DNA from: Nocardia sp. NBC_00565
Lineage (GTDB): Bacteria > Actinomycetota > Actinomycetes > Mycobacteriales > Mycobacteriaceae
Direction: 5' to 3'
NCBI RefSeq assembly: GCF_036345915.1
Contig: NZ_CP107785.1
Span: 1,798,001-1,862,000, forward strand
Length of the DNA: 64,000 nt
Shown piece by piece: positions 20,104 to 62,805 of this stretch. The notes beneath the pieces were generated by a model. It was not told where the DNA came from. It ran no database searches and saw only the letters and a program-made list of their open reading frames with translations. Each line of letters opens with the position of its first letter. Position 1 is the first letter of the stretch. A program made the position numbers and the translations under genes.

Positions 20104-21527
20104 GGTCCGGATCCTCTTTTCCCGATGACGACTAATGGCTGGCCCAGCACCCCGCGCGCGATCGGCTGCGGCGGTGGCCGGCCATTTCGAGCGACCTGCA
20201 AGCTGTCGCTAGCGGTTGGTTTCGCGCAGCGCCGATACTCCTTGACCGCCAGATAGATCAGCGTCGCGAGCACCGCGGCCTGCAGGAATTTGCCCAGCGC
20301 CTCCATGCTGCCCAGGATGCCGCGCTCGAACAGCGACGAGGCGCCGGTCAGCGCGAGTGCGAGCACCACCATCGGGAAGTACCGGGAATACAGCGCTGTG
20401 GCCCAGGCGAGCAACAGCACGAAGGTGAAGCCGACACTGACCACGATGCCGGTGTAGCCGCCGATGACGTAGCCCTCGTTGACATTTCCCTCGGCGAGCG
20501 ACACCTGGACCCGGGTCATATCCACCGACGCGCCGCGAATGTCGTTGGCCCATGCGGTGCCGGATTGGAACTTCGCGGTGCCCAGCAATTGGGTCGGGAT
20601 CAGGCTGAGCGTGGCGTGCCGGAAGACCTCGTCGGGTGCGAGCCAGTAGCCGGTGCCATGATAGTAGGCGTCGGTCGCGGCCTCGAGTAGATCGAAGCGC
20701 CGCAGGATGGACAGGAACGGCCGCACGGTCGGCGGATAGGCCGAACTCACCATCGCCGCTTCGGCTTTGCCGACCTCGGTGGTCTTGAACGACTGCAGCC
20801 AGCCGAAACCGCCGATGCCGAGCACCGCGATGGCCAGCACGCCGACGACCTTGGCCTTGGTCCATCCGAGGATCGCGAACCGGACGGCCACGGCGAGCGC
20901 CGCCCCGAGGATGGGGGTCTTCGATTCGACGACCACGGTCCACATCAGCTCACCGGCCAGTAGTGCGCCGATCAACAGTGCGGCGGTGCGCGGCCGGGCC
21001 GGACGGATGAAGATGATCAGCCCGAGCGCGGCGACGGTCGCGAGAATACTGACGAAGTTGAGAATCGGATTGGCGCTGTCGACATCACCGGCGTGGCCGA
21101 TGGATCCGGTGGCATAGGAAGCCCCGCGCCCGAGCAGGCCGATCACATAGATGGTGGCCAGGGCGGGCACGAAATCCGGGTTCGTACTCATCGCTGGTAG
21201 GCCCTGAACCGGATGGCGGCGCGACCAGATCGCATATCCCACAATGAGTATCGCGTACACCCATAGTCCGAATACGACGTGGTGCAGGACCAGCGCGATA
21301 CCGCGGTCGTAGCCGAGTTCGGCCAGACGTGGGTCGGGCACATTGTCGCCGTAGTGCGGTTCGGGCTGCACCACCAGCAGCACCACGGGCCGGGCGACAT
21401 AGGATAGCGACCAGAATGCGGCCTGCGCGATGATGAAAACCCTTGCGACACTTGGTACCCACGCCGCGGCGACCGCGAGCGTGGCCAAGGCGCAGGCGAT
21501 CGCGATGATCTCGGCATAGGCACTCAT
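20094..21527 (-). CDS. Wzy-like multi-spanning polysaccharide polymerase candidate
   Basis: A 477-residue protein with about ten hydrophobic segments and an extended loop around A-T-D-A-Y-Y-H-G-T-G-Y-W, consistent with an O-antigen polymerase/ligase topology. There is no catalytic signature, as is usual for Wzy. Position between flippase and Wzz genes supports the role. The ATG at 21525-21527 overlaps the upstream stop (ATGA). The last 40 residues are unusual: the coding sequence there contains a dispersed repeat (20181-20215), and the polar Pro/Gly-rich tail runs into the next gene, as if an insertion moved the stop. Confidence 0.72.
   Translation of the reverse strand: MSAYAEIIAIACALATLAVAAAWVPSVARVFIIAQAAFWSLSYVARPVVLLVVQPEPHYGDNVPDPRLAELGYDRGIALVLHHVVFGLWVYAILIVGYAIWSRRHPVQGLPAMSTNPDFVPALATIYVIGLLGRGASYATGSIGHAGDVDSANPILNFVSILATVAALGLIIFIRPARPRTAALLIGALLAGELMWTVVVESKTPILGAALAVAVRFAILGWTKAKVVGVLAIAVLGIGGFGWLQSFKTTEVGKAEAAMVSSAYPPTVRPFLSILRRFDLLEAATDAYYHGTGYWLAPDEVFRHATLSLIPTQLLGTAKFQSGTAWANDIRGASVDMTRVQVSLAEGNVNEGYVIGGYTGIVVSVGFTFVLLLAWATALYSRYFPMVVLALALTGASSLFERGILGSMEALGKFLQAAVLATLIYLAVKEYRRCAKPTASDSLQVARNGRPPPQPIARGVLGQPLVVIGKRGSGPWD
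20181..20215 (-). repeat. Dispersed hairpin repeat, copy A
   Basis: One copy of the ~34-bp repeat found also at 26381-26448 and 62733-62805. On the plus strand it reads CCATTTCGAG followed by an inverted repeat AGCGAC-N9-GTCGCT. It lies inside the 3' end of the Wzy-like coding sequence. Confidence 0.7.
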
Positions 21528-22540
21528 GTCTTCGCCTCCCCGAGTGCGTCGAGGATCTCGCGTGCGCGATCGACGTACCGGTGCCCGCCCTCGGTGATCC
21601 GCCGGTACCCGGCCTCGGCGATGGCGTCGGCCTTGTCCGGATGCCGCGCGCACCAGTCCAGGATCTCGCGCAGTTCCGTGGGCCCGGTGAAGAGGAAGCA
21701 TTCGACGGTGTCGCGCAACAGTTCCGCGTGCTCATCGGTGCGCTCGCCGACGAAAAGTCCACCCGCGGCCGGCACTTCGAAGGTGCGGCAGGTGTGGGTG
21801 TCGCGGTTGTCGGAATTGAGCAGCACGAGATTCGCGGTGATATCGGCGATCACGGCCGAATACTGTGGGCCATACACCGGACCGCCGACCGCGGCACCGG
21901 TGGTGCGCAGTTCCGGGATCCGCCGCCAGCCCGGTCCGCGCACCAGCATCCGGTCACCGTGATCGCGTGCGAGCGCGACCAGCTCGCCGCGCCGATCGGG
22001 GCGGCAGACGCCGATGAAGCCGACGAGGTATCGCGGTGTGCGCCGCCGCGCGGCGGCATAGTGCCACGCCGGGTCGTAGGCACTGCGGACGAAGGTCACC
22101 GCCTGCGCGCCCCGATCGAGCAGTTCGGGCACATTGTGCCGTTTCGTGGTGACGATCAGATCCCAATCGGGTTCGTGCGCAAGGTATTCCGGGCTGATGT
22201 TGTCGAGGTTGGCGACATCGTCCGGGCTGTAGTGCACGTGCAGCCGCGCGGGGATATCCAGCAACCTGCGCTGATCGAGATGGACGGCCTTGAAGGCGAA
22301 GACCATATCCGGCTGGAATTCCGCTGCGGCACGGTCGATTTCGCCGTGCAGGTCGGTGATCGTCCACGGAGCCCGGCGATGCGCGAACTTGGCATAGACC
22401 CACGGCGGTGACAGTCGCGCCGGCAGGGTGACCGGCGTGGAGTCGATGACGACCACGTCGTGTCCCGCCTGCCGGAAGCCGTCCGCGAGCGAGCGCGCGT
22501 TGCTGCCGACCCAATCGTCCCCGACGAACAGGATCTTCAC
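21524..22540 (-). CDS. CgeB-like glycosyltransferase
   Basis: A 338-residue GT-B protein. It starts M-K-I-L-F-V-G-D-D-W, has a central V-H-Y-S-P-D-D and a C-terminal T-H-T-C-R-T-F-E-V-P-A-A-G-G segment characteristic of the Glyco_trans_1_2 (CgeB) family. Enzymes of this group transfer sugars in spore-coat and surface polysaccharide synthesis. Four-base overlaps with both neighbours show it is within the same translated operon. Confidence 0.82.
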   Translation of the reverse strand: MKILFVGDDWVGSNARSLADGFRQAGHDVVVIDSTPVTLPARLSPPWVYAKFAHRRAPWTITDLHGEIDRAAAEFQPDMVFAFKAVHLDQRRLLDIPARLHVHYSPDDVANLDNISPEYLAHEPDWDLIVTTKRHNVPELLDRGAQAVTFVRSAYDPAWHYAAARRRTPRYLVGFIGVCRPDRRGELVALARDHGDRMLVRGPGWRRIPELRTTGAAVGGPVYGPQYSAVIADITANLVLLNSDNRDTHTCRTFEVPAAGGLFVGERTDEHAELLRDTVECFLFTGPTELREILDWCARHPDKADAIAEAGYRRITEGGHRYVDRAREILDALGEAKT

Positions 22541-23943
22541 CGCATACCCTCCTCGCGCATCAGCACGACAGCGGGACTCGTGGATATCGGCACGGTCCGT
22601 TCACGCACGATGAGGGTGCGGACCCGCACGAGATACCAGATGGCCGTGCTGAATTCGACGAGCACACTGCCGTAGACCAGCGTCCAGACCGAATGCGTGT
22701 GGAACGCGATGAACAGCGCGATACCCGCGACGCAGGTGCCCAGCACCGCGCCGATCAGCACACCGGTGGTGTCCTGGCGCACCGGCAACAGCGCCGTGGT
22801 GACGAACGAGGTGATCGTGGTCGCGGGCAACATGAAGATCTCGACCCGCAGCAACCCGACGGCCCCGGTGAATTCCTCGCCGAAGATGAGCCGGATCATC
22901 AGCGGCGCGGCGAGCCATACGGCGACCGCGGCGACGGTGGCGACACAGATACAGGCCGTCAGTGCCATCAGGGCGTGCCGCCAGAACCGGTGATCGGTAC
23001 TGCGCCGCGCCATCCGGGGCAGTAGCGCGAAACCGATGGGATCCAGGGTGGATTGGATGGCGCGGACCAGTCGGTCGCCCGCCGAGTAGAGGCCCAGCGA
23101 TACCGTGTCCAGGACCGCGGAGTACACCGCCGCCGCGCCCTGTCCGTAGCTGGTCACCAGCACCCGCGAGGTGAGAACCGGTGCGCCTGTGCGCAATACG
23201 CTCTTGAAATGCCGCGGCCGGGTCGGCAGACCGAAGGTGCGCAGCGAATCCCACCACGTCAGCACCACGGTTGGCACGGAGGAAATGAGCAGGCACAGCA
23301 GCGCGAGCTGTGCGCTCGGCATGCGGGGGAGTAGCGCGACGAGCAGGATCAGATAGCCGATCCGCCCGACGGCCTGGTAGGCGGTGGAGGCGCCGAATCG
23401 GCCCTGCCCGATCAGCAGCCAGTCCTCCGATACCGACCAGAATCCGCCCGCGAACAGGCCGAGCAGGATCATCTCGAGCTGTACCGGCGCACTCGCCGCC
23501 AGGCTGAGCAGCAGTGCGATCCCGATGGCGCCGAGGGTGGTCGACCGGATGGCCAGATAGTCGCCGCGCAACTGATTGATGGTGCGCAGCCGCTCGCTCT
23601 CGCCGTCGCGTTCCCGCGAATCGTGCACCCGGGCCGCGAGGAACGAGGTGATGCCGAGGTCGACCAGCAGTGAACCGATGAAGTACGCCGACATGCCGAT
23701 CGCCAGCAACCCGAGTCCGTGGGTGCCGAGTACCCGCGCGATCAGCGGAACGGTGACGATGGTGATGACGTACTGCCCGTATTTACCGAAGGTGACGTAG
23801 CCGATATCGCGCAGGATGGCGCCGAGACCGTGCGTGCGATGTAGGCCGCCGCCGCGTTCATCGCTGCGGTGCGCGCCGCCGGGAGTGACGGGAGTTGGTG
23901 GGGTGGGCAGTGGCTGGCCTGCGGCATGTTTGGGCTCAGACAT
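22537..23943 (-). CDS. Wzx-like polysaccharide flippase
   Basis: A 468-residue MOP/PST superfamily membrane protein with about 12-14 hydrophobic segments after a ~45-residue polar N-terminus. A typical first helix region is G-Y-V-T-F-G-K-Y-G-Q-Y and the mid-protein has G-L-Y-S-A-G-D-R-L-V-R-A. It should flip the undecaprenyl-linked repeat unit across the membrane. The ATG at 23941-23943 is chosen because it falls just inside the preceding gene, overlapping it by 8 bases. Confidence 0.87.
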   Translation of the reverse strand: MSEPKHAAGQPLPTPPTPVTPGGAHRSDERGGGLHRTHGLGAILRDIGYVTFGKYGQYVITIVTVPLIARVLGTHGLGLLAIGMSAYFIGSLLVDLGITSFLAARVHDSRERDGESERLRTINQLRGDYLAIRSTTLGAIGIALLLSLAASAPVQLEMILLGLFAGGFWSVSEDWLLIGQGRFGASTAYQAVGRIGYLILLVALLPRMPSAQLALLCLLISSVPTVVLTWWDSLRTFGLPTRPRHFKSVLRTGAPVLTSRVLVTSYGQGAAAVYSAVLDTVSLGLYSAGDRLVRAIQSTLDPIGFALLPRMARRSTDHRFWRHALMALTACICVATVAAVAVWLAAPLMIRLIFGEEFTGAVGLLRVEIFMLPATTITSFVTTALLPVRQDTTGVLIGAVLGTCVAGIALFIAFHTHSVWTLVYGSVLVEFSTAIWYLVRVRTLIVRERTVPISTSPAVVLMREEGMR

Positions 23944-25129
23944 GCGGAGTCCGTTCTCGCGGATTCTGCTGTCCCGCAGCGCCATTGCGTCGGGTGATGG
24001 TCTCGAGGAAGGCGGCGACGGTGTGCGCCGACGCCGTGATGTCGAAGTCCTCGGCTCGGATGCGCGCCGCCGTTGCCAGACGGGTGCGCAGTGCCGGGTC
24101 GCCGATGAGTGTGTCCAAGGCTGCGGTGAGTTGCCGCTGGTCGCCGCCGTCGACGAGCAGTCCGTTGACACCCGGCTCGACGATTTCGGCCGGACCGCCC
24201 GGACCGGAGGCGATCACCGCACAGCCCGCGTGCATACCCTCCACCACGACCTGCCCGAACGGTTCGGGGAGTGTCGAGGAGTGCACCAGGATGTCGGCGT
24301 CGCGCAGATAGCGGCTCGGATCCGCCACATGTCCGGTGAAGGTCACCGGCAGTTCGAGTTCCCGCGCCAGGCGTTCGAGTTCGGCGTGGTAGGGCTCTTC
24401 GTCGAAGAAGGTGCCGCCGACGAGAAAGACTTGTCGCGGTGGCACTTTCGCGGCCGCGACGGCGCGGAGCAGGACGTCCTGCCCCTTCCATGGCGTCAGC
24501 CGGCCGACGGCGACGAGCACGGTGTCGGTGGGCGAGCGTTGTTCGGCGCGCTCGCAGCGGTCGTCGAGTTCCACACCCGGGTAGGCGACTACGGCGGGTC
24601 CGCGTCCGATCCGCAAGGTACGCAAGGTGGTTCGACTATTGGCGATGTAGCCGTGCGCCGTCAGTCTGCCGAGTAGCTGGATCACCATGGTCGGTAGTCG
24701 GCCGAAGTAGTCCACCGCGATCCGGTCGTGCACCTGCCAGATCAGCGGAATGCCCGCGCGCCGGGCCGCTACCGCCCCCATCACCAACGCTTTGGTGCTC
24801 TCGGCGACGAGTACATCGGCACCCAGTTCGCGCGCGGTGGCTCCCAGCGCCCAGCCGAGTCGCACCAGCGCAATGAATCCGGCCACCATACGCAGCGGCC
24901 CGGATCCGATGGTCATCGCACGGCTGTCGAACGCGCCACGCAGCACGCGGGTCTCGACCCCGCGCGCCCGCATGCGTTCGACCATCGGGCCGTCCTCCGT
25001 ATAGATCTGAGCCACGTCGATGAGCCGTAGTTCGCGCAGCGCGGCCAGCAACCGCAGGGTCGCCAGTTCCGCACCGGACGGGGCTGCGGTGTGCGCGAGG
25101 AAGAGGGCCTTGGTCCTCGATGGGGTCAT
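23936..25129 (-). CDS. GT4 family glycosyltransferase
   Basis: A 397-residue GT-B enzyme. Motifs: H-T-A-A-P-S-G-A-E-L near residue 12; donor domain V-A-V-G-R-L-T-P-W-K-G-Q-D, then H-S-S-T-L-P-E-P-F-G-Q-V-V-V-E-G-M-H-A-G, with the E-x7-E pattern of retaining GT4 enzymes. The start at 25127-25129 overlaps the stop of the preceding GT gene by ATGA; an earlier start at 25207 is inside that gene. It adds one sugar of the repeat unit. Confidence 0.9.
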   Translation of the reverse strand: MTPSRTKALFLAHTAAPSGAELATLRLLAALRELRLIDVAQIYTEDGPMVERMRARGVETRVLRGAFDSRAMTIGSGPLRMVAGFIALVRLGWALGATARELGADVLVAESTKALVMGAVAARRAGIPLIWQVHDRIAVDYFGRLPTMVIQLLGRLTAHGYIANSRTTLRTLRIGRGPAVVAYPGVELDDRCERAEQRSPTDTVLVAVGRLTPWKGQDVLLRAVAAAKVPPRQVFLVGGTFFDEEPYHAELERLARELELPVTFTGHVADPSRYLRDADILVHSSTLPEPFGQVVVEGMHAGCAVIASGPGGPAEIVEPGVNGLLVDGGDQRQLTAALDTLIGDPALRTRLATAARIRAEDFDITASAHTVAAFLETITRRNGAAGQQNPRERTPHV

Positions 25130-26235
25130 CGCTTTAATTCCTGATACATCGTCAGATGACGCTCCGCTGTGACATCCCACGAGAAAGTTTCTGCGTGCGA
25201 GCGACATTGCTCGGGTGTGGGCAGCTCGCCGTTGAGGGCGGACACAATGCGCGCGCCGAGTGTGTCGGCATCGCGAGCGGGCACGATCAGCGAAGAATCC
25301 AGTCCGCGTACCGAATCCGGCAGTCCACCGCAGTCGGTGACGATCGGCGCGCGGCCAGCGGCCAGAGATTCCAGGGCGATGAGGCCGAATCCTTCCAGGG
25401 CAGTCGTCGGGACAACAGTCAGTTCGGCCTGTTCGTACAGGTCGGTGAGCTGTTTGTCATCGACGTTGCCCGCGAACGTGATCGAATCGCCGAGCCCCGC
25501 GCCCGCGGCTTGGGCGCGCAATTCGCCTTCGGCGGTACCGGTTCCGACGAGGACCAGGCGGGCGTCCGGGTGTTCGGCGACTACCCCCGGCCAGCAGCGC
25601 AGCAAGGTGTCGATGCCCATGCGGCGTTCGAGTCTGCGCACGCACAGGACCGTTCGGTGCGCACCGGTCGGTATCGGCGTAGCGCGGAAACGGGTCAGAT
25701 CGACGCCGGGCGGGATCACCTGGATCCGTTCGGCCGGTACCCGGTAGTCCGCGCTCAGCACCTCGCGGAAGTGGTTGGACAGCACCACGAATCGGTCCGC
25801 GCCCGCATATCTGACCCGCTCGATCAGATATTTCGCTCTCGTACCGAGCTCGCCCTGTCCGGTCAGCCGGCTCTCCGCGGCCCACGGTCCGTGGAAGTGC
25901 ACGACCAACGGCACCCGGCCGTCCCGCGCGAACGCCGCCGGACCGTATAGGGCGAAATGCCGATCCAGCACATCCGCGCGGCGCAGGTCGGCCCGCTCCA
26001 GAAATGCGGAGCGGGCCCGGTCGATGGTCGAACCGCCGGTTCGCCCCCAGGAACGCGCGCCGGGCGGATCGTCGGGGGAGACCGCACCGAACGCGGCCGC
26101 CGAGACCGTCACCCCCGGTTGCCGCGCGAGTGCGTGGAACAGTTCGGTGAAGTACCGATTGAGTCCGCCGGGGGCCGATGCGAACCACTCCGAACCCGTC
26201 ATATGCACACGCAATGCCCCGGCCACTGCCGTCAC
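25126..26235 (-). CDS. GT4 family glycosyltransferase, first gene of the minus-strand operon
   Basis: A 369-residue GT-B enzyme with G-S-E-W-F-A-S-A-P-G-G-L-N-R-Y near the N-terminus. The donor domain has L-C-V-R-R-L-E-R-R-M-G and T-T-A-L-E-G-F-G-L-I-A-L-E-S-L-A-A-G. Start is GTG 26233-26235 with AGGAG and a G-rich stretch upstream. It heads a run of at least seven overlapping genes, so the operon promoter should lie in 26236-26446, which also holds two repeat copies. Confidence 0.88.
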   Translation of the reverse strand: MTAVAGALRVHMTGSEWFASAPGGLNRYFTELFHALARQPGVTVSAAAFGAVSPDDPPGARSWGRTGGSTIDRARSAFLERADLRRADVLDRHFALYGPAAFARDGRVPLVVHFHGPWAAESRLTGQGELGTRAKYLIERVRYAGADRFVVLSNHFREVLSADYRVPAERIQVIPPGVDLTRFRATPIPTGAHRTVLCVRRLERRMGIDTLLRCWPGVVAEHPDARLVLVGTGTAEGELRAQAAGAGLGDSITFAGNVDDKQLTDLYEQAELTVVPTTALEGFGLIALESLAAGRAPIVTDCGGLPDSVRGLDSSLIVPARDADTLGARIVSALNGELPTPEQCRSHAETFSWDVTAERHLTMYQELKR

Positions 26236-26380
26236 CGCGCCCCCTACTCCTGGCGATGCTGGGGCGAGTTTGCTGCCCGAACCCGCTTCCCGCGCAACAG
26301 TCTATGTGAGTTGCGGTGTTCCGGCGGGGGTCGAGATCAACTGTGATCAGGGCGAACGACCAGTTCGCTACGCGGTCGCT

Positions 26381-26448
26381 GCTGACCATTTCGAGTGACC
26401 TGCAAGCAGTCACTGCTGACCATTTCGAGTGACCTGCAAGCAGTCACT
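26381..26448 (-). repeat. Dispersed hairpin repeat, copies B1 and B2 (perfect tandem)
   Basis: Two identical 34-bp units, 26381-26414 and 26415-26448. Each reads GCTGACCATTTCGAG and then the inverted repeat AGTGAC... as GTGAC-CTGCAAGCA-GTCAC(T) on this strand. Relative to copy A the arm bases differ but remain complementary. They lie between the first GT4 gene of the operon and an oxidoreductase remnant, in the likely promoter region. Confidence 0.8.
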
Positions 26449-26794
26449 ACGGTAGATCGAACAGATTCGGCTGCCCGGACCGATATCGCGCGGCATCCAT
26501 CTGCCGGAACGGCTCGAACGCCGGAATCGAATCGCGAGTGAACAGCTGAGCGCGTGCGGCATTGGAGCCGGACGCGCCCAGCAGCGCGTTCACCGCGGTC
26601 CGACCCGCCTCGTTCGCCCCCTCCATCGTGGTACTGGCCACTTCGCCGGAGCGTCGTTGCGCGCGGTCTACGGTGGCCAGATATCCAAGCGGCCAACGGA
26701 TTAGCGTTGCGCGGCCGGTCTCGACAGCTCCGATTCGGACATTCGCGACGTGGTGTTCGGCCAGGTGGCCGACGGCACCCGGGTGGGGTAAATT
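26447..26794 (-). pseudogene. 3' remnant of an FAD-dependent oxidoreductase
   Basis: The minus-strand frame is open from 26794 to a TAG at 26447, about 115 codons, and reads as a coherent protein end. Its key segments are H-V-A-N-V-R-I-G-A-V-E-T-G, R-W-P-L-G-Y-L-A-T-V-D and then S-T-T-M-E-G-A-N-E-A-G-R-T-A-V-N-A-L-L. The T-M-E-G-A-N-E-A-G-R motif is how many FAD-dependent amine-oxidase/desaturase-like enzymes end. An in-frame TGA at 26795-26797 closes it upstream and no FAD-binding N-terminus exists, so about three quarters of the gene is gone. Confidence 0.55.
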
Positions 26795-26858
26795 TCACAT
26801 CGAGTTCGTGCCCGGCACGGACCGACCCGCGGGGGACCGGCGGGAGGACTGAGGGACT

Positions 26859-28380: not shown

Positions 28381-29418
28381 ACAGGCGGTAAACCCGCAGC
28401 CGTGGCACCGGAAGATTCGTTCGGCGAGTCCGAGGGGCTGCTTGGCTCTCGCGAAACACCTCGAACACGTCATCGTCGTATAAGCGGGCCGCACCAACAC
28501 CACCCTCCGGCCGGCCCGCATACCACGCTCGATCAATTCGGTCTTCGCCGCGCCGATAGCCGCATCGGCGGCCTTACGCGCCAGCGTGGATTTGGCCAGA
28601 AACTTCGGCGTGAAGTCCTCCACCGCGATCAAACCATGGTGGTCGACAACGCTTTTCGCCCACACCCGCGCATCATGCCGGGTTTGACGGGCAGCCTTGA
28701 TGTGCAGCTTCGCGGCCTCGCGGGCCGCCCGGTGATACCCCCTCGACTGCGGGCCGCGTTTACTGCGGCGACGCCTAGCCATCTTGCGTTGCGCCCGCGC
28801 GAGTTCGGCGGCACAGCGTGCACGATGTCCGCGATAGGGCAGATCGAACGACGGGTCGGTGGTCGTAGCCGTGGCACGCACACCCCAGTCGATCCCGATC
28901 GTGCTCTCGGCCACGGGTGCGGGATCGACGGTGCGGCGCACGACGAACGAGGCATACCAGTGCCCGAGCGAATCTCGAGTGACGCGCACGCTGGTCGGTT
29001 CGGACGGCAACTCCCGCGACCACACCACCGGAATGCTCACCCCTTTGGCCAGCACGAGCCGCCCGTCGCGGAGGCTGAACCCACGCTTCGTGTACTCCAG
29101 CGACAGCGCGGACGTCTTGCGGGGTTTGAACACCGGCCGACCCCGGCCCTTGACGGTGAACGACTGAGCAAGCGCCTGCGCATACGTTCGCAGCGTCTGC
29201 TGCTGGGCGACCTGCGAACCCTCCCGCAACCACACGCTCCCCGCGCGGGCCGCGGTCAAGAGCTTGCCCAGTGTGCCGTACGTCGGCTTGTTGCCCGACT
29301 TCTGTTGGTGGACAGCCTCATTCCACAGGAACCGGCAGCGATGCCACTCGGCCAGCAAAATCGACTGCGCGGCGCGGCCCGGCCGCAGCCGATAGTTGTA
29401 CCGCACCACCTCCTCCAT
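28258..29418 (-). CDS. tnpB: TnpB RNA-guided nuclease (IS605 OrfB)
   Basis: A 386-residue TnpB with an apparently intact RuvC site: Asp177 (G-I-D-W-G), Glu267 (V-E-D-F) and Asp348 (C-R-D-Q-N-A). The zinc ribbon has Cys318, Cys321, Cys338 and Cys341. The N-terminus R-Y-N-Y-R-L-R-P and the Arg-rich linker (M-A-R-R-R-R-S-K-R) are typical. The ATG at 29416-29418 is preceded by sequence without a strong ribosome site; the frame is open to 29466. It would cut DNA next to a TAM under guide-RNA control, favouring retention of the element. Confidence 0.9.
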   Translation of the reverse strand: MEEVVRYNYRLRPGRAAQSILLAEWHRCRFLWNEAVHQQKSGNKPTYGTLGKLLTAARAGSVWLREGSQVAQQQTLRTYAQALAQSFTVKGRGRPVFKPRKTSALSLEYTKRGFSLRDGRLVLAKGVSIPVVWSRELPSEPTSVRVTRDSLGHWYASFVVRRTVDPAPVAESTIGIDWGVRATATTTDPSFDLPYRGHRARCAAELARAQRKMARRRRSKRGPQSRGYHRAAREAAKLHIKAARQTRHDARVWAKSVVDHHGLIAVEDFTPKFLAKSTLARKAADAAIGAAKTELIERGMRAGRRVVLVRPAYTTMTCSRCFARAKQPLGLAERIFRCHGCGFTACRDQNAARVILAVAERGHTRVDDVRQSDHLPRVAGPVAVRA

Positions 29419-29531
29419 GCCCGCGAATCTAGCCGACACCACCGACACATCACCCCGACCCAACAACCTCGATTAGGAGGACGGCGCTTGCTCACCCTCG
29501 CGAACGATAGAGTCTCCGCGCCCAACATCCG

Positions 29532-41541: not shown

Positions 41542-42854
41542 CGCGCGTGCCTTCCCCTTGTTTCAGCGTTGTTCGATTCCCCGAGCACGGCTCTGTGTTC
41601 GTCGGAGAGCACGGCTCTATGTTCGTCGGAGAGCACGGCTCCGTGCAAAGTTGGTAGTGGATAGATCAGTTCGCCGCCCCATTCGGCGATATGGCGCAGC
41701 TGTGCGGTGATCTCGGCCTCGAGGTTCCACGGCAGCACCAGCACCACATCGGGTCGATCGAGATCGATGCGTGCTGTCGGGTAGATCGGGATTCGTGTGC
41801 CAGGGGTGAATCGACCGTGCTTATAGGGATTTCGGTCGACCGTGTAGCTCAGCAGGTCGGGGCGGATTCCGCAGTAGTTGAGCAGCGTGTTGCCCTTGCC
41901 CGGTGCACCGTAGCCGACCACCCGCTTGCCCTGCGCGCGTGCGTCGAGCAGGAAGCGCAGCAGTTCGTGGCGGACCCGTTGCGCGCTGGTCTCGAGGTGC
42001 CGGTAGCCCTCGGGCCGGTGCAGGCCCGCGGCCGCCTCGCGGCGCAACACCTCGTGCACCCGGTCGCTCGGCGCGTCCGCGACCGCCTCGGGGCGGGCCC
42101 ACAGCCGGATCGAACCGCCGTGGGTGGCAACCAATTCGACATCCACCACGGCCAAGCCCGCGGTGGCCAGCGCACGCTGGGCCGAGAGCACGGTGTAGTA
42201 CTGGAAATGCTCGTGGTAGATCGTGTCGAACTGGCCCAGTTCCATCAGGTTCAGCGCATGGTGCACCTCGATCGAGAGCCAGCCGTCATCGGCCATCAGT
42301 TCGCGCAGCGCGCGGGTGAATCCGCGCAGGTCGGGGACGTGCGCGTAGACATTGTTGGCGACGACCAGGTCCGCTGGTCCGTGCTGCGCGCGGATCCGTT
42401 TGGCGAATTCCTCGTCGAGGAACGCCGTTTCGGTCGGCACCCCGATCTCCCGCGCGGCGGCACCGACATTCACCGAGGGCTCGATGCCCAGGCACGGGAT
42501 CCCCGCGGCGACCACGTGGCGCAGCAGGTAGCCGTCGTTGCTGGCGGCCTCGACTACGAGTGAATCCGCATTCAGGTTAAGCCTTTTGATAGCATCCGTG
42601 ACAAATACCTCGGCATGCCTTACCCAGCTATCGGAATATGACGCGAAATACGCGTATTCCGTGAAGGTTTCCTCCGGAGTGATCAGTGCGGGGATCTGCA
42701 ACAGTAGGCAGTCCTCGCAAACCCGCAGATGGAGCGGGTAGGTCGGTTCGGGGAGGTCGAGTTCGTCCACTGCCAGGAATTTTTCGCAGGGTGGGGTGGC
42801 ACCGAGGTCCAGCACGCTCGCGAGACGTTCGGAATCACAAAGCCGACAACGCAT
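41538..42854 (-). CDS. Sugar C-methyltransferase (NovU/TylCIII-like)
   Basis: A 438-residue SAM enzyme. The N-terminal zinc site has C-R-L-C and C-E-D-C, then V-V-E-A-A-S-N-D-G-Y (SAM motif I), H-V-P-D-L, E-H-F-Q-Y-Y-T (active-site His-Glu region) and the C-terminal K-R-V-V-G-Y-G-A-P-G-K-G-N-T. It methylates a carbon of a 4-keto nucleotide sugar. Two oddities: codons for about residues 60-100 are unusually AT-rich, and the tail holds an eight-residue tandem repeat (A-V-L-S-D-E-H-R). It heads the four-gene minus-strand operon. Confidence 0.87.
   Translation of the reverse strand: MRCRLCDSERLASVLDLGATPPCEKFLAVDELDLPEPTYPLHLRVCEDCLLLQIPALITPEETFTEYAYFASYSDSWVRHAEVFVTDAIKRLNLNADSLVVEAASNDGYLLRHVVAAGIPCLGIEPSVNVGAAAREIGVPTETAFLDEEFAKRIRAQHGPADLVVANNVYAHVPDLRGFTRALRELMADDGWLSIEVHHALNLMELGQFDTIYHEHFQYYTVLSAQRALATAGLAVVDVELVATHGGSIRLWARPEAVADAPSDRVHEVLRREAAAGLHRPEGYRHLETSAQRVRHELLRFLLDARAQGKRVVGYGAPGKGNTLLNYCGIRPDLLSYTVDRNPYKHGRFTPGTRIPIYPTARIDLDRPDVVLVLPWNLEAEITAQLRHIAEWGGELIYPLPTLHGAVLSDEHRAVLSDEHRAVLGESNNAETRGRHAR
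41583..41646 (-). repeat. 24-bp tandem repeat in the methyltransferase 3' end
   Basis: Units at 41583-41606 and 41607-41630 differ at one base, and a 16-base third copy follows to 41646. The unit keeps frame (8 residues, AVLSDEHR), so it can expand or shrink by slippage without breaking the gene. Confidence 0.8.
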
Positions 42855-48226: not shown

Positions 48227-48234
48227 TCGTAGCG

Positions 48235-54274: not shown

Positions 54275-54909
54275 CAGATCTCCTTGCTGAGTGTGTCCAA
54301 AATCGTTGGGTCTGTAAGGAATCCCTGTGTGTACAGCTCTACGGCGGGCAGCGCGAACTCCTCGGTCATCTCGCGAACGAGTTTGCGATAGTCGAGCTTT
54401 TCGCCGCGTTGTTGCAGCAGGGTGAAGTACATGACAGTCGCGCCGACATTGACCGTCGTCAGATATTTGGCCCGCGCGGCCGGATCGCGGCTCGGTTTGA
54501 TGGTGCCCGCCTCGACGCCCGCCTGGATGTACTCTTCGGCGTCCGAGATCATGTGCTCGAGCAGGGATTCGGCCAACGGGCCGCCCGCCTGCAGGCTACG
54601 CACCATGTAGGCGACCAGTGGGCCGTAGGCCTCGATCTCGACCATGGACGCGAGCATGCCTTTGGCGACGTTCGTATCGGTGGCGGTCTTCCATTTCTGT
54701 TCCCGGATCAACCGCAGCACCTGCTCGTCGCAGGCGGCCCGCAGGCCGTCCTTGGAGCCGAAGTGATGGTTGACCAATCCGGGGGAGACCCCGGCCGCTG
54801 CGGCGATCGCGCGCACTCCGACCTGAAATCCATTGTCACCGAACACCTCGATGGCGATATCGCGAATGCGGGCGGCGGTGGTGAGATCCGACTTCGGGGT
54901 CGGTGTCAC
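54274..54909 (-). CDS. TetR family repressor of the ABC exporter
   Basis: A 211-residue TetR protein: [14 protein letters not shown], then [20 protein letters not shown] (HTH). GTG start at 54907-54909. First gene of the three-gene operon. A 36-bp palindrome 45 bases upstream is the evident operator, so the exporter is probably induced by its substrate. Confidence 0.9.
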
Positions 54910-54953
54910 GCTGCACTCCTAGCTCGGCGGATCTTTGCGGTATGGCTCTCTGG

Positions 54954-54989
54954 TTGAACGCATGTTTAGTATATTAAACACGTGTTCAA
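54954..54989. promoter_or_regulatory. 36-bp near-perfect operator palindrome
   Basis: TTGAAC...TGTTTA (left) and TAAACA...GTTCAA (right) mirror each other around an AT-rich centre, with mismatches only at isolated positions. The AT-rich centre may include the -10 region. Length and place fit a TetR repressor binding as a pair of dimers. Confidence 0.8.
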
Positions 54990-55107
54990 TCGCAAGGCAA
55001 GGGTTTCGCGAGGATGTCGTGTCACGGTGTTTCCGCGGCCGGATGCGCCGGTGTTGCTGTTGGCGCGGACCGATCGCGAGCCGGAGCGAGAACGCTAGGG
55101 TCGGGGT

Positions 55108-57060: not shown

Positions 57061-57067
57061 TACTGTG

Positions 57068-57113
57068 GCGCACCGCGTTTGCCGATCAACCCGAGTGGAC
57101 TCGGGCGGTGCGC
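57068..57113. terminator. Nested stem-loops between convergent genes
   Basis: Outer arms GCGCACCGC (57068-57076) and GCGGTGCGC (57105-57113) enclose an inner hairpin CCCGAG-TGGA-CTCGGG (57090-57105). It starts 7 bases after the acyl-CoA oxidase stop and runs into the last codons of the PAP2 gene. Confidence 0.55.
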
Positions 57114-57733
57114 TGCGTCGGCTCGAGTAAGTGTCCGGTGAGTCGGCAGAGCGCGGTGACCATCGCGATCGCCGCGGCCGCGCCGCCGAGAATGTCGGTG
57201 GGCAGATGATAGCCGAGTCCGATCATGCCGATCGCGGCGCAGAGCAGGGCGGCGATAGCGAGCGCGGCCGTGCGCACCCGCGCCCGGGGCGAGTCGGTCA
57301 GCAGTACGAACGCGGTGGCGATCGCGACCAGGTGCACGGTATGCCCGCTCGGATACGCGAGATAGTCGTGCAGCGGCCGGTCCCAGAGCGGTTTCAGCAC
57401 CCAGCTGTTGATCCCGACCGCGACCTCCGGAGTCACCACCATGGCCACGGCGCGCCGCCACCACCCCCGATAGCCGAACCAGGCTGCGGCCGCGAACAAT
57501 AGCGGGATCAGGATGTAGCCGTTGCTAGGAATCACCAGGGCCCGATATACCCCGGGATGGCCGTCAGCGGCCGAGTGGATCGGGTCCGCCAGCGCACCAT
57601 CCACACCGGTCGGACCGCCGCTATGCGGAAAAGTCAGCGGTAGCAGGACGGCAATGAGCGCGCCGGAGATGACCACGCACAGCGCGATGACGTCGGCCCG
57701 GTACCGGCCGAGCAGCTCCCGTAGTGCGATCAC
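57086..57733 (-). CDS. PAP2 family phosphatase
   Basis: A 215-residue, six-helix membrane phosphatase with K-P-L-W-D-R-P, Y-P-S-G-H-T and G-Y-H-L-P-T-D-I-L-G-G, the three PAP2 motifs. Candidates for the substrate are undecaprenyl pyrophosphate or phosphatidic acid. GTG start (57731-57733), 9 bases from the stop of the upstream gene, so co-transcribed with it. Confidence 0.9.
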   Translation of the reverse strand: MIALRELLGRYRADVIALCVVISGALIAVLLPLTFPHSGGPTGVDGALADPIHSAADGHPGVYRALVIPSNGYILIPLLFAAAAWFGYRGWWRRAVAMVVTPEVAVGINSWVLKPLWDRPLHDYLAYPSGHTVHLVAIATAFVLLTDSPRARVRTAALAIAALLCAAIGMIGLGYHLPTDILGGAAAAIAMVTALCRLTGHLLEPTQRTARVHSG

Positions 57734-57742
57734 GGATTGATA

Positions 57743-58645
57743 TCACAGGGGCCCGTAGGTCAGCACCGCGGTGATGACGAACCAGATTGCCCAGGCGAAG
57801 GCGATGAGCATGCCGGTCGCCAGTGCGATGCGCATGAACGCGCGACCGAGATCCATATCACCCGGCACCCGCGGATAGAGCTTCCACGGGCTGTACCAGG
57901 GCGCCTCGATGACCAGGGCCGGTGCGTGCGCTTCCTTTTCGGCCGCCGCCAACTCCTCGGCGTAGGCCTCCGCCTGTGCTTGTTGCGGGCCGCCGTGCCA
58001 CAGCGTGATGTCGATGGGGCCGAGAAAGCCCTCGTTGATCAGATCCTGCGGTGCGGGCAGAGCGGGCAGAATGCCCAGGCTGCGGAACGCCACCGCCACA
58101 TCATTGGCCGTCCAGAGGTGGATGTTCTGCTCGGAGTCGGCCAGCGTCTCGAAGTAGTGCCGCAGCCGGTCGGGGTCGTTGCCGAGGATCACATCGAAAC
58201 TCGGATCGCTCCACTCCTGCTTGACCGACAGCTCGGCGCCGCGCAGCGGGACGATCAGCGCGACACCGTGCACCGCGCGCTGGCCGAGACCGCGCGCGGC
58301 CAGCCAGTTCTGCAGCGCCAGGGTGTGTTCGCGGGATTTGTCCAGCGGGGTGCGGCGGTCACGGCCCTCCGTGGCCATGGGCGCACCGGAGATCGCCCAT
58401 GGTCCGCTGAGCGGCACCTCCAGCACACCGTCCTGGCGCGTGACCAGCGCCTCGGCCTCGATCACCACACAGCTGGTCGGGGTCCAGACCACGGCGTCGA
58501 ACTGGTGCAGCCGATCGTTGTGGAACAGACTGCAATTCACCGTGGCGACACCGTGCGGGCTGGCCGGATCCTTCCAGGTGCGCAGCCAGTCGATCAGCGC
58601 CCGCTCGGCATTGGTGCCTGCCGGGTTCTGCACTCGCACGAGCAT
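57743..58645 (-). CDS. NERD-like nuclease-related membrane protein
   Basis: A 300-residue protein. The N-terminal half looks like a NERD domain (A-E-R-A-L-I-D-W-L near the start, then F-D-A-V-V-W-T and V-V-I-E-A-E-A), the pattern of a restriction-endonuclease-like fold. The C-terminus carries a membrane helix (~275-295). Function not established; membrane-linked DNA processing is one idea. Confidence 0.65.
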   Translation of the reverse strand: MLVRVQNPAGTNAERALIDWLRTWKDPASPHGVATVNCSLFHNDRLHQFDAVVWTPTSCVVIEAEALVTRQDGVLEVPLSGPWAISGAPMATEGRDRRTPLDKSREHTLALQNWLAARGLGQRAVHGVALIVPLRGAELSVKQEWSDPSFDVILGNDPDRLRHYFETLADSEQNIHLWTANDVAVAFRSLGILPALPAPQDLINEGFLGPIDITLWHGGPQQAQAEAYAEELAAAEKEAHAPALVIEAPWYSPWKLYPRVPGDMDLGRAFMRIALATGMLIAFAWAIWFVITAVLTYGPL

Positions 58646-58735
58646 TCGCGACCGCCCTTCACGTCGTCACTCGATGGTGGCAAGGATACGGACAACACCG
58701 CCCGGTTGGCCGCGCCTGCGACCAGATCCGGCGTG

Positions 58736-60127
58736 TCACTGTGGATGTTCGACGGCGATCTTCCCGGTGCGTACCGCGTCGACCAATTCGGCGTGGTCGG
58801 CCTCGGTCTGATCGGCGTAGCGGACCGCGAAGCGTGCGACGGCAGCTTCGAAAGCCTCGTCACCGTCGAGATACCCGGCGATCAGGCGGGGATCCAGTGA
58901 CCGCGAATGCGCGCGGGCCAGCAGCGCACCGGCGAGTCGCCCGTAATCGTCGAGGTCATTCGAAGACAGCTCCGCGGGGTCGATACTGCCTTTCATATTG
59001 CGGAATTGGCGCACCGTGAACGGCAGCTCGCCATTGTCGAAACGCAGTGTGGTCCACCCGAGCAGGATATCGGTTTCGGACTGAACCAGCCTGGCGCCTT
59101 GCACGATTCGTTCGCCCTCGTGTCGCGGCGACGGTGCGTCCAGAAACGGTGACAGGGCCGACGGGTTGGCCTGCTTCAACTGCAGCACCAGCGCCTCGCC
59201 CGCATTGCCGTGCAGCAGCGCCACATAACTGTGCAGTCCGACGCTGCCGGTGCCGACGATACGAAAGGCGATGTCGGACACCGCGAATCGGGTGAGCAGG
59301 TTGCGCCGGGACGCACGCAGGGTGTCGCCGTAGCGCTCGAGCCCATCGATGACCTGCTCGGCCACCACGGTGTCGACCGGCGTGAGAATCGGTGGGTCAC
59401 TGACGAATCGGTGCTTGCTGATGCCGGTTTCGTGATCCTCGAGATGTTCGGTCCACTTCTCGACCACCTTCGCGCTGGTGTTCTTACGCGCCTTCTTCGC
59501 GGCCTTCTTGAAGTCGTCGAGCAGATCGTCGGCTCGCGCCCGGCTGAGGATCGACTCGTCCGGCAGCGCGCTCCACGATTCCATGAACGGTTGCTCGGCG
59601 AGGTGGTCGATGGCGAGGCGGTAGAAGCGCGCCGCGTCCCGGGCCGCGGTCGCGCAATCGTCTTCGGCCGCACCGCCTTCGCGGCCCGCCAGCACCAGAC
59701 TGGCCGCGAGCCGCTCCAGATCCCACTCCCACGGGCCGACGATGGTTTCGTCGAAATCATTGATGTCCATGATGATTTCGCCGCGTGGCGTGCCGTACAG
59801 GCCGAAATTCGCGGCGTGTGCGTCACCGCAGATCTGCGCGGGCAGACCGCTGTCCGGGCTGCCCGCGAGATCGGCGGCCATCAGCCCGGCTGCGCCCCGA
59901 TAGAAGGTGAACGGCGAGGCGACCATCCGGCCCACCCGCAGCGGCACCAGATGCGGCAACCGGCCCATATTGCTCGCGTCCACGAACTCGAGCACACCCG
60001 GCCGCTTCGACCAGGTGGCCGCCCGGTCCCGCGCGGTTACCGGCACCCGCTGCCGCAACGCGCGACCACGGGCACGGACCTCCTCGGCCGGCACATAACT
60101 ACGAAGATCGACACCACTCGTTGACAC
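58736..60127 (-). CDS. DUF2252 family protein
   Basis: A 463-residue protein with F-Y-R-G-A-A, C-G-D-A-H-A-A-N-F-G and D-I-N-D-F-D-E-T (kinase-like catalytic HxD and metal segments). DUF2252 proteins belong to a kinase-like fold without a defined substrate. GTG start at 60125-60127 with no strong ribosome site. Confidence 0.85.
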   Translation of the reverse strand: MSTSGVDLRSYVPAEEVRARGRALRQRVPVTARDRAATWSKRPGVLEFVDASNMGRLPHLVPLRVGRMVASPFTFYRGAAGLMAADLAGSPDSGLPAQICGDAHAANFGLYGTPRGEIIMDINDFDETIVGPWEWDLERLAASLVLAGREGGAAEDDCATAARDAARFYRLAIDHLAEQPFMESWSALPDESILSRARADDLLDDFKKAAKKARKNTSAKVVEKWTEHLEDHETGISKHRFVSDPPILTPVDTVVAEQVIDGLERYGDTLRASRRNLLTRFAVSDIAFRIVGTGSVGLHSYVALLHGNAGEALVLQLKQANPSALSPFLDAPSPRHEGERIVQGARLVQSETDILLGWTTLRFDNGELPFTVRQFRNMKGSIDPAELSSNDLDDYGRLAGALLARAHSRSLDPRLIAGYLDGDEAFEAAVARFAVRYADQTEADHAELVDAVRTGKIAVEHPQ

Positions 60128-60179
60128 AACGGTCCAGATTAGTGTGCCGCGCAGACCGGTGCCGACTACCCGTTCGCCG

Positions 60180-61874
60180 TCAGGTTGCCGGGATGGCCGG
60201 ATCGACCGGCGCGATCGGCAGCCGCAACGCGCCGGAGGCGGCTGCGGGCACGGTCGGATGCTTCGGCGCGACGGGGGAGATCCGGCGGTACGCCGAGCCC
60301 AGCTCCGGCCGCGGATCGGCCTCGTTCTTGTTGGGCCAGAACGCCATCGCGCGCTCGGCCTGCGCGGTGATGGTCAGCGACGGATTCACCCCGAGGTTCG
60401 CCGTGACCGCCGAACCGTCCGCGACATGCAGCCCGGGATATCCGAACACCCGCTGATACGGGTCGACCACACCGGATTCCGGCCCCTCGCCGATCACACA
60501 GCCGCCGATGTAGTGCGCGGTGGCCGGGATGTTCAGCACATCCATGATCAGGCCATGGGTGTCGCCGCGCACCTTGGCGCCGAACCGGCGGCCGATATCG
60601 TGCGCCAGCGGAATCCAGGTCGGATTCGGTTCGCCGGTGCCCTGTTTTGTCTTCAGCTGCCCACGCTTGCGGTAGGAGGTCAGCGAATTGTCCAGCGACT
60701 GCATCACCAGCAGGATCACCGACTTCTCCGAGGCGTGGTGCGCGTTGAGGCTGCGCAGGAATACCAACGGGTGCACCACGATTGCCAGCAGGAAGCGCAG
60801 GAACCGGAACGCGCCGCCGTCCACGATCGGCACCGACATCGGGAACAGCGCGTTCTGGCCCTTGCCGTAATGGCATACCTCGATGTGGGTATCGGCCTCC
60901 GGATGGATCGATGAGGTGATCGCGATGCCTTCGGCGAAATCGCGGCGCGAGCGGCTCACCACATTGAGGATCGCCTCGGAATTGCTGCGAGTCAGTTCAC
61001 CCAGGCGCGGTGAAAGATTCGGCAGCACGGCCTCATCGCGCATCTTGTGCAGCAACTTCTGGGTGCCGAGCGCGGCGCCGGCGAACACCACCTGCTCGGC
61101 GGTAAAGGTCTTGCGCTGCTTGCGAATCCAGCGATCCGAGCGCTCGGTCTCGACCGCGTAGCCGCCGCTGGACAGGGGCCGCACTTCGGTTGCGGTGGTC
61201 AGTGGATGCACCTCGGCCCCGGCCCGCTCGGCCAGGTACAGGTAGTTCGTGGTGGTGGTGTTCTTCGCGTTGTTCGGGCAGCCGGTGAAACATTGCGCGC
61301 AATGCACACAGCCGCGCCGGCGCGGGCCTGCGCCGCCGAAATACGGGTCGTCGACCTCGGCGCCCGGATCATCCTCGTTGAAGAACACACCGACGTTGGT
61401 CGGGTGGAAGGTGCTGCCGACGCCCAGATCGTCGGCGATCTCCTTGATCACCGCGTCGGCCGGTGTCATCCGCGGATTGGGCGCCACCCCGAGCATGCGC
61501 TGGGCCTGGTCGTAGTAGGGCGCGAGTTCGGCCTTCCAATCGGTGATGTGGGCCCACTGCCTGTCGGTGTAGAAGTTCGGCAACGGCTCGTAGAGGGTGT
61601 TGCCGTAGATGAGCGAGCCACCGCCGACGCCGGCGCCGGAGAAGACCGCGCACTTGCCGAGCACGCTGATCCGCTGCGGTCCGGTCAGACCCAGCCGCGG
61701 CGCCCAGATCGACTTACGCACATTCCAATTCGTCTTCGGAATGTCCTCGGCGTCCCAGCGACGGCCCGCCTCCAGCACGCCGACCCGATAGCCCTTCTCG
61801 GTGAGGCGCAGCGCGCTGACGCTGCCGCCGAATCCGGAACCGATCACTACCACGTCGTAGTCGAATGCGGGCAT
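60180..61874 (-). CDS. choD: ChoD-type GMC oxidoreductase
   Basis: A 564-residue GMC flavoenzyme: G-S-G-F-G-G near residue 12, G-A-G-V-G-G-G-S-L-I-Y-G-N, and the closing V-A-D-G-S-A-V...N-P-S-L-T-I. It is the size and pattern of Rv3409c, annotated as cholesterol oxidase in mycobacteria, though that activity is disputed. A four-cysteine cluster (Cys189, 192, 195, 199; C-x2-C-x2-C-x3-C-P) resembles a ferredoxin site. GAGGGAAG decides the ATG at 61872-61874. Confidence 0.85.
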   Translation of the reverse strand: MPAFDYDVVVIGSGFGGSVSALRLTEKGYRVGVLEAGRRWDAEDIPKTNWNVRKSIWAPRLGLTGPQRISVLGKCAVFSGAGVGGGSLIYGNTLYEPLPNFYTDRQWAHITDWKAELAPYYDQAQRMLGVAPNPRMTPADAVIKEIADDLGVGSTFHPTNVGVFFNEDDPGAEVDDPYFGGAGPRRRGCVHCAQCFTGCPNNAKNTTTTNYLYLAERAGAEVHPLTTATEVRPLSSGGYAVETERSDRWIRKQRKTFTAEQVVFAGAALGTQKLLHKMRDEAVLPNLSPRLGELTRSNSEAILNVVSRSRRDFAEGIAITSSIHPEADTHIEVCHYGKGQNALFPMSVPIVDGGAFRFLRFLLAIVVHPLVFLRSLNAHHASEKSVILLVMQSLDNSLTSYRKRGQLKTKQGTGEPNPTWIPLAHDIGRRFGAKVRGDTHGLIMDVLNIPATAHYIGGCVIGEGPESGVVDPYQRVFGYPGLHVADGSAVTANLGVNPSLTITAQAERAMAFWPNKNEADPRPELGSAYRRISPVAPKHPTVPAAASGALRLPIAPVDPAIPAT

Positions 61875-61916
61875 GGCTTCCCTCTCTGAACCGTGCGGCA
61901 GTCTGTTCGCCAACCA

Positions 61917-61933
61917 TGTGAGATGGTTTCACA
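61917..61933. promoter_or_regulatory. Inverted repeat TGTGA-N7-TCACA upstream of choD
   Basis: Five-base arms around seven bases, about 45 bp before the choD start and on the opposite side of pgsA2. It could be a CRP-like or TetR-type site; low certainty. Confidence 0.35.
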
Positions 61934-62029
61934 CTCATTCTGTCACCGCGGGGTTGCGGGCACGCGAAAGTATCCGTAACTGGCGTGCCCGGATGGCGTG
62001 AACCGGGGTCGGTGGGGTATGCACGGGCT

Positions 62030-62707
62030 GTGACAACCGAATCGGGGAAGACGGAACCAGGCGAACGCGCCGACTCCGGCACGGGCGCGCAGGGCACCGC
62101 GGGCGACCCGGCCGGGGGCGGCATCTTCGCCGACCGCATCCTCACCGTGCCGAATGTCTTGAGCGTGCTGCGACTAGCGGGCGTTCCGCTGTTCGTATGG
62201 TTGCTGCTGGTGGTGCGGGCCGACGGCTGGGCATTCGCGCTGCTGGTGGCCAGCGGCGTCACCGACTTCCTGGACGGCAAGCTGGCCCGGTTGCTCGACC
62301 AGTCCTCGCGGCTCGGCGCGCTGCTCGACCCGTTCGTGGATCGGCTCTACCTGGTGACCACGCTGGTGACCTTCGTGATCCGCGGGCTGATCCCGTGGTG
62401 GGTCGCGGTGATCCTGATCGGCCGCGACGCGATCCTGACCGTGACTCTTTCGGTGTACAAACGTCGCGAACTGGACCCGCCGGAGGTGATCTACCTCGGC
62501 AAAGCGGCCACCTTCGCACTCATGTCCGCGCTACCGTGGCTGCTCGCCGGTCAGATGGATTGGGCGCTGGCAGGTTTCGGCCGTGCCTTCGGCGGGGCAT
62601 TCCTGGTCTGGGGCACGGCGGTGTATGTGTGGACCGGCGTGCTCTACATATGGAAAGCTTTCGCCGTCGCGCGAGCGATACCGGCTGTGCCACACCGCAG
62701 TGAGTAG
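62030..62707 (+). CDS. pgsA2: CDP-alcohol phosphatidyltransferase (PgsA2-like)
   Basis: A 225-residue membrane enzyme with the CDP-alcohol motif D-F-L-D-G-K-L-A-R...G-A-L-L-D-P-F-V-D-R (D-x2-D-G-x2-A-R-x8-G-x3-D-x3-D pattern). A polar N-terminus of about 45 residues precedes the helices. It makes a phospholipid from a CDP-diacylglycerol and an alcohol; which one is not clear. Its place before gcvH and garA matches Rv1822. GTG 62030 chosen; GTG 61985 is possible. Confidence 0.85.
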   Translation: MTTESGKTEPGERADSGTGAQGTAGDPAGGGIFADRILTVPNVLSVLRLAGVPLFVWLLLVVRADGWAFALLVASGVTDFLDGKLARLLDQSSRLGALLDPFVDRLYLVTTLVTFVIRGLIPWWVAVILIGRDAILTVTLSVYKRRELDPPEVIYLGKAATFALMSALPWLLAGQMDWALAGFGRAFGGAFLVWGTAVYVWTGVLYIWKAFAVARAIPAVPHRSE

Positions 62708-62732
62708 CGATTAGAGTTGGCTCGTACACCCG

Positions 62733-62805
62733 TAGCGACTGCTTGCCGGTCGCTCGAAACGATCATCAACATGGACTGCTTGTAGGTCGCTCGAAGACGA
62801 TCGGC
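62733..62805 (+). repeat. Dispersed hairpin repeat, copies C1 and C2
   Basis: Two diverged units in the pgsA2-gcvH spacer, opposite in orientation to the copies at 20.2 and 26.4 kb. C1 (62733-62767) has AGCGAC-TGCTTGCCG-GTCGCT then CGAAACGATC; C2 (62771-62805) has GGAC-TGCTTGTAG-GTCGCT then CGAAGACGATC. The hairpin arms are kept perfectly in C1. Confidence 0.7.

Follow-up and report, generated by a model that had tools for sequence, protein, structure and literature searches.

The stretch analysed here, referred to below as the window, comprises 64,000 nucleotides of Nocardia sp. NBC_00565 (C1:1798001-1862000, C1 being the single contig of a genome of 9,711,624 bp). An earlier note, made from the letters of the window alone, had described in it a dispersed hairpin repeat of about 34 bp, and the five copies claimed at three loci (A, B and C) are all present. 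Unprefixed positions are those of the window, and G and L numbers are our handles for genomes and loci. The cores of the five copies and the reading frames that they touch or precede are as follows.

20094 to 21527, minus strand: open reading frame (ORF) of 477 aa without a Pfam match; copy A sits close to its 3' end
20185 to 20210, plus strand: core of copy A, inside the 3' end of the preceding ORF; arms AGCGAC/GTCGCT, T at core position 19
26389 to 26414, plus strand: core of copy B1; arms AGTGAC/GTCACT
26423 to 26448, plus strand: core of copy B2; arms AGTGAC/GTCACT, identical to B1
26447 to 26641, minus strand: 3' part of an ORF whose stop is supplied by B2; it ends in NLFDLP and the stop
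62734 to 62759, minus strand: core of copy C1, upstream of gcvH
62771 to 62796, minus strand: core of copy C2, upstream of gcvH and head to tail with copy C1; degenerate, with a broken 3' arm
62836 to 63225, plus strand: gcvH (glycine cleavage H protein; PF01597, E 5.1e-36), downstream of copies C1 and C2

Copy A is translated in the frame of its ORF, as (A)SDSLQVARN, and this site carries no copy in two near relatives (L076, L077), where the aligned stretch is 51 bp shorter. The period of B1 and B2 is 34, a value also returned by a tandem-repeat program, and the last two bases of the B2 core together with the next A form the TAG stop of the ORF that ends at 26447 on the minus strand; the period of C1 and C2 is 37. 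With a 19-bp core pattern and up to three mismatches, the window gave 7 matches against 0.35 expected, and 0 of 100 shuffles reached 7. The matches at 28973 and 47291, with three mismatches each, are probably due to chance. No Rfam covariance model matched the window above its gathering cut-off. A tandem repeat at 41583-41645 (period 24, 2.6 copies) is unrelated to the hairpin family.

We consider it probable that the repeat is mobile but non-autonomous: a unit of 35-36 bp, with a 26-bp core that folds into one bulged hairpin, similar to the repetitive extragenic palindromes (REPs). The small REP-like mobile hairpin put forward in the earlier note is upheld in this form by the copy number, by empty sites in relatives and by the coupling of the arms. 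The genome-wide search that the note had called for did return further copies: the core TTTCGAGYGACCTGCAAGCNGTCRCT occurs 219 times in the own genome with at most three mismatches, 120 times forward and 99 times in reverse, and the same pattern written backwards not once. In 935,516 bp fetched from this genome, mostly selected around listed copies, 152 copies were found with up to five mismatches and again none with the backward pattern; 82 of them have no mismatch to the degenerate core, 46 have one, 14 two, 3 three, 5 four and 2 five. To judge by these sequences, the family is young and no chance match.

Close species differ at individual sites by a discrete unit, which is found in both orientations. 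This emerged from a comparison of occupied and empty sites among relatives, of the kind suggested by the earlier note, which yielded 15 rows: 13 with a single copy, representing 10 distinct insertions, and two with arrays. The inserted length was 35-36 bp in 10 of the 13 single-copy rows, one of which (L135:2358, 35 bp) is poorly aligned (48 of 75). Of the other three, one measured 39 bp (the same insertion being 36 bp when compared with another genome) and two measured 47 bp, the latter being one insertion seen in two genomes and poorly aligned (49 of 75). The array rows gave 173 bp for five copies (34.6 per copy) and 144 bp for four (36 per copy). The moving unit can therefore be refined from the earlier estimate to a single hairpin of 35-36 bp, the ends of the insertions being resolvable only to within a few bases. 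The insertions show no clear target duplication, and direct repeats in the flanks of 76 loci were no longer than in shuffled pairings (z 0.9-1.6), with z 2.1 in one of nine settings, that of single loci. In G117, a copy at L142:3581 interrupts the gene for tRNA-Arg(CCG) in a tRNA cluster; the gene, intact in the own genome (L018:2351-2426), is no longer reported in G117 by the tRNA finder.

Arrays grow by local head-to-tail duplication. Of the 83 loci in the first own set, 50 were single and the others had two to nine head-to-tail copies, with periods of 33-38 bp. Within an array the spacers are mostly near-identical and join the right and left flanks of their own locus, a pattern that would be expected from local tandem duplication. 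Site C illustrates this growth: G117, G121 and G009 have one copy there, the window two, and 15 other aligned genomes (including G112 and G045) none. Arrays inside genes (four, one of them in a weakly scoring ORF) have a spacing of 36 bp in 8 of 8 cases, against 11 of 113 between genes.

A larger palindromic repeat has also carried one copy along. This second dispersed repeat, which we call BIG, is about 155 bp long, consists of long nested palindromes (GTGTTCGCGGCC...GGCCGCGAAC) and gives 71 BLAST matches in the own genome; many of its copies are at least 90% identical (for example C1:5374734-5374934, L267, and C1:8385418-8385568, L268). Among 26 aligned BIG copies, 6 carry the hairpin unit and 20 lack it, the point of insertion being always the same; the insert is exactly 35 bp without duplication in five of the six and 38 bp beside a small deletion in the sixth (L295). 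Because the place is identical in all six, these units probably go back to one insertion that later spread with BIG. Three of the six have another 30-bp insert in the opposite arm, and matches to BIG flanks also occur in stretches of G117 and G121. Rfam gave no match to BIG above the cut-off, with two sub-threshold matches (31 of 80 bits) at the same place in L267 and L030. We attribute to the copies inside BIG the one sign of pairing between the flanks of the hairpin unit, z 2.1 at 30/25 bases; near the core, left and right flanks form no outer stem beyond what shuffles give (z 0.0-1.0).

Could local processes account for the whole distribution? Replication slippage and gene conversion alone, without transposition, would fit the tandem arrays, whose locus-specific spacers indicate local duplication. 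Slippage is, however, unable to seed new loci: flank matches are few among the 83 first own loci once the six inside BIG are set aside, and relatives have empty sites. We give this explanation hardly any credence.

To the near-invariant core the repeat adds a tail on the 5' side (NTTTCG) and a few flanking bases of lower conservation. In 145 copies with at most three mismatches, conservation covers the core and the next A, with a weaker GCYGRYYN on the left and (C/G)(C/G)G on the right. One possible fold of the core is AGCGAC(C)TG-CAAG-CAGTCGCT, in which the stem contains one extra C. Accordingly, the nine-base centre of the inverted repeat described earlier can alternatively be read as a continued bulged stem, with CTG/CAG pairs, one extra C and a CAAG loop. 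RNA folding favours this bulged form, DNA parameters give it and the nine-base loop equal energy, and the covariation at pair 12-19 supports the bulged form. When consensus or combination units were folded as DNA, the consensus unit had -6.1 kcal/mol, the compensated T-A version -4.6 and the version with C-G at 12-19 -7.9, against -2.8 and -0.7 for two one-sided versions.

Covariation was assessed on 109 distinct cores, 67 from the fetched DNA (up to six mismatches) and 42 more among the genome matches listed. Pair 7-23 is C-G in 86 cores, T-A in 5, T-G in 4, C-A in 6 and otherwise in 8; pair 12-19 is T-A in 69, C-G in 8, C-A in 11, T-G in 7, G-A in 6 and otherwise in 8. Pair 10-20 is C-G in 85 and C-A in 10, with two two-sided changes to T-A among the remainder. 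Joint changes at two positions were seen at least three times in 21 cases, and the lowest Fisher p values, which ignore the relatedness between copies, fell to 7-23 CG to TA (0.0014) and 12-19 TA to CG (0.0017), both pairs belonging to the stem of the bulged hairpin. Within the window, the paired arm changes noted earlier hold for copies A, B1, B2 and C1; they do not hold for C2, whose arms read AGCGAC/GTCCAT. At site B, where the window has two AGTGAC/GTCACT copies, a single one with AGCGAC/GTCGCT is present in G121 and in G117, whose flank is that of N. vinacea L076; on this sequence comparison, the two-sided change is derived with respect to these two relatives. It could also have arisen by conversion from another copy. 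There is no copy at site B in N. brasiliensis, N. vulneris, N. suismassiliense, N. ninae or N. altamirensis, nor in N. pseudovaccinii, which has unrelated sequence there though its protein closeness equals that of N. vinacea.

The genomic context was examined with a home-made gene caller based on codon usage, which called 85% of the DNA coding. Intergenic copies prevail: 64 of 88 own loci lie between genes and 24 inside them, as compared with 15% of non-coding DNA (p=4e-34, in regions mostly chosen around copies); a first count had given 63 and 20 of 83. Of the 63, 21 are in divergent gaps and 4 in convergent ones, the latter being rather under-represented in the own genome (9.7 expected, p=0.053), a deficit absent from G117 (4 of 21) and G121 (6 of 23). 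In tandem gaps, 20 copies lie along transcription and 18 against it. As this orientation is random, the RNA-processing role that the earlier note had entertained is unlikely. In well-scoring genes the copies are read in sense frame 1 (xSSDLQAVAS) 12 times, in antisense frame 0 ((A)ASDCLQVARN) 16 times and in other frames 11 times, orthologous copies being included more than once; none uses the frame closed by TAG. A gene stop overlaps the element at 8 own loci.

The repeat extends to other Nocardia genomes, as the earlier note had asked to be checked. Among 148 sampled genomes of the genus, the own one included, 46 match with at most two mismatches and 102 have no match, the highest counts being 199 (own), 137, 134 and 38. 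The nearest named relatives of the own genome are N. vinacea and N. pseudovaccinii, at 90% protein identity. In a sample of the family, 9 of 301 genomes match with up to three mismatches, in 2 of 31 genera. The second of these genera is g22, in which two of six sampled genomes, G168 and G209, have 12 and 15 copies, some with exact cores, the four congeners having none. These copies may come from horizontal transfer. In the stretches L194-L206 of G168 and G209, some copies have flanks that match between the two genomes. In a sample of the class, 2 of 394 genomes match, both of the own genus and one of them the own genome; since the backward control gave one match in another genome of this sample, lone matches with three mismatches may be chance. 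Possible carriers gave nothing: there was no exact match in viral contigs and no BLAST match (E ≤ 0.01) in plasmid and phage collections. Along the own chromosome, 19 of 56 exact-copy loci are at 7-9 Mb and 1 at 2-3 Mb, and copies appear denser around the sign change of the partial GC skew, which falls between 6.5 and 8 Mb and perhaps marks the replication origin.

Several results weigh against our reading of the repeat as a mobile unit and are gathered here. The first is that no mobilising enzyme was found, Y1 being the only family searched for. The RAYT-type driver for which the earlier note had advised looking did not turn up: a search for Y1 transposases in the own genome and the 148 genomes of the genus found none of the REP-associated type among those typed. 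The own genome has five Y1 matches, one of them over the full model, and 28 of the 148 genomes have a Y1 transposase. Of the 21 proteins or fragments fetched, ten were assigned a type: each scores above the cut-off of the IS200/IS605 model and none reaches that of the REP transposases (best 34 of 80 bits), although drafts may miss genes. Around 20 Y1 loci (5-7 kb each) there is no copy with up to five mismatches, the only near match, with six, being 1.7 kb away in L154. The intact own gene is an IS200/IS605-type tnpA at C1:8035241-8035606 (L031), adjoined by a long divergent ORF that by eye resembles tnpB; partial Y1 matches lie at C1:8700467, C1:172348, C1:8217692 and C1:1682788. One gene considered as a driver, with copies on either side in G117 as well as in G121, proved to be a TerD-domain gene (L126:3068-5062 and L127:3449-5305, respectively); the copies on its two sides are in opposite orientation, and the long array is on different sides in the two genomes.

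These Y1 data bear on two alternatives. TnpA recognises the folded single strand of IS200/IS605 and REP ends, and a resident IS200/IS605 TnpA (that at C1:8035241, or the two copies in G121) could move the hairpin in trans, two of the three genomes richest in copies, the own one and G121, having an intact TnpA. Yet the presence of Y1 and that of the repeat are unassociated across genomes (10 share both, 8.7 expected, Fisher p=0.65); the copy-rich G117, also among the three richest, and G009 hold only Y1 fragments; and the ends of the IS605-like element in G121, the one insertion sequence (IS) pair looked at, have by eye no similar hairpin. We regard this as unlikely. It is doubtful, though somewhat less so, that the repeats are a genuine REP family whose RAYT (TnpA-REP) has since been lost or has diverged beyond recognition, the present copies being relics. 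Size, copy number, hairpin, the mostly extragenic place, stop supply and intragenic copies are as in REPs, as far as the consulted part of PMC3733652 describes them, and transposition of a single strand would agree with insertions that leave no clear target duplication. The case against comprises the typing of all ten typed Y1 proteins as IS200/IS605, the lack of copies with up to five mismatches near 20 Y1 loci, the lack of a GTAG or CGTC tag and of inverted pairs, and the youth of the copies, 82 of 152 being exact to the degenerate core.

To return to the points against our own reading, a lagging-strand mechanism like that of IS608 would predict a bias in replication strand, and none is found (52:43, p=0.41; exact-copy loci 34:22, p=0.14, with replichores inferred from the partial GC skew). 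Relative to the core, the inserted unit varies in phase from site to site, and no single phase fits all. Uncompensated arm changes occur in many copies, and 36 of the 109 cores do not pair at the outermost positions, 5-25. Of the selection for a hairpin proposed in the earlier note, the coupling of the arms, significant by Fisher tests blind to relatedness, stands, while uncompensated copies, which the note had said would refute it, are common, so that the constraint on pairing is only partial. The conservation of cores at orthologous sites speaks for our reading, with reservations. Where 8 own loci were compared with occupied sites in G117, G121 and G009 (13 comparisons), 577 of 5887 flank positions differed, against 15 of 338 core positions, or 1 of 208 once the five window comparisons are set aside; the sites are few, and the use of the closest array copies favours low values. 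This low divergence may result from selection or conversion. Together with the coupled arm changes, it is what a host binding or regulatory site under selection (DNA architecture, RNA hairpin or terminator), and no mobile element, would show. Such a site is very unlikely given the 102 genus genomes without a match, the random orientation in tandem gaps, the 4 of 63 intergenic loci in convergent gaps, the empty sites in relatives and the copies inserted in coding regions and a tRNA gene.

Returning to the mobile, REP-like unit, we suggest that an enzyme acting in trans would recognise the folded single strand and paste the unit into G+C-rich sites. Most copies would be tolerated passengers, persisting where genes stay unbroken, and the hairpin would be maintained because foldable copies are those copied or converted. 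More tentatively, the single 35-36-base hairpin might on its own suffice as a mobile unit, which would place it with the smallest known; an enzyme outside Y1/RAYT would move it, in Nocardia as in one related genus, and it would insert without target duplication or fixed core phase. If so, this mode of insertion could mean a circular or array-derived intermediate. Whatever the driver, the repeat has left natural insertions of about 12 codons that keep the reading frame, and one tRNA gene that it disrupts.

Bacteria widely contain short palindromic repeats. In the literature searched the core sequence did not occur, and no paper combined RAYT with Nocardia, or RAYT and REP sequences with Actinobacteria; among the papers listed by broader searches, titles and abstracts told of no such repeat in Nocardia, and the general REP papers listed did not have the word Nocardia. 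The words Nocardia, Mycobacterium and Actinobacteria are absent from the main text of PMC3733652, and a word search found no actinobacterial names in PMC10969869 and PMC6006769. The repeat resembles the GTAG-REP/RAYT systems in being a palindrome of 20-40 bp with more than 100 copies, mostly intergenic, with an unpaired hairpin end, intragenic copies and supply of stop codons. It differs from them in having no conserved GTAG (on the minus strand the motif needs a C at position 27, found in 68 of 145 copies, and its AG is in the stem), no RAYT found in its genomes and no preference for convergent gaps in the own genome. Unlike the inverted pairs of REPINs and BIMEs, the Nocardia unit inserts singly and its arrays are head to tail; in Pseudomonas, according to the part of PMC3116915 consulted, the moving unit is an inverted pair, and a search of reads found excised REP pairs and no excision of single REPs. 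With the CGTC-tagged REPs (Neisseria dRS3, Rickettsia RPE-4 and RPE-6), as portrayed in the sections of PMC3733652 consulted, it shares short palindromes with an unpaired end motif, also present in ORFs; those REPs have no associated transposase gene, and around the 20 Y1 loci no copy of the Nocardia repeat with up to five mismatches was seen. It is unlike them in that its consensus lacks the CGTC of their tag (CGTC, TGTC or CCTC), its stem is bulged and its arrays are head to tail, whereas CGTC elements are, in the same sections, mostly head-head dimers with head-tail ones negligible. The mover of repeats without a RAYT was left open by Di Nocera et al. (PMC3733652). A young, abundant family that has precise empty sites and varies between close species makes this question of the driver testable.

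Miniature inverted-repeat transposable elements (MITEs) are likewise non-autonomous, short and intergenic. The Nocardia repeat differs from them in having no clear target duplication, and usual MITEs are far longer than its 35-36 bp; terminal inverted repeats of a resident transposon were not seen in the one IS pair looked at (G121). Since no GTAG or CGTC tag is conserved, the arrangement is head to tail and the moving unit is single, we file the repeat as REP-like only, and as no member of a described REP family. Its nearest analogue may be the small dispersed repeats (SDR) of cyanobacteria, which belong to a different phylum and are reportedly (Elhai et al. 2008) very small, dispersed and apparently mobile with no known enzyme.

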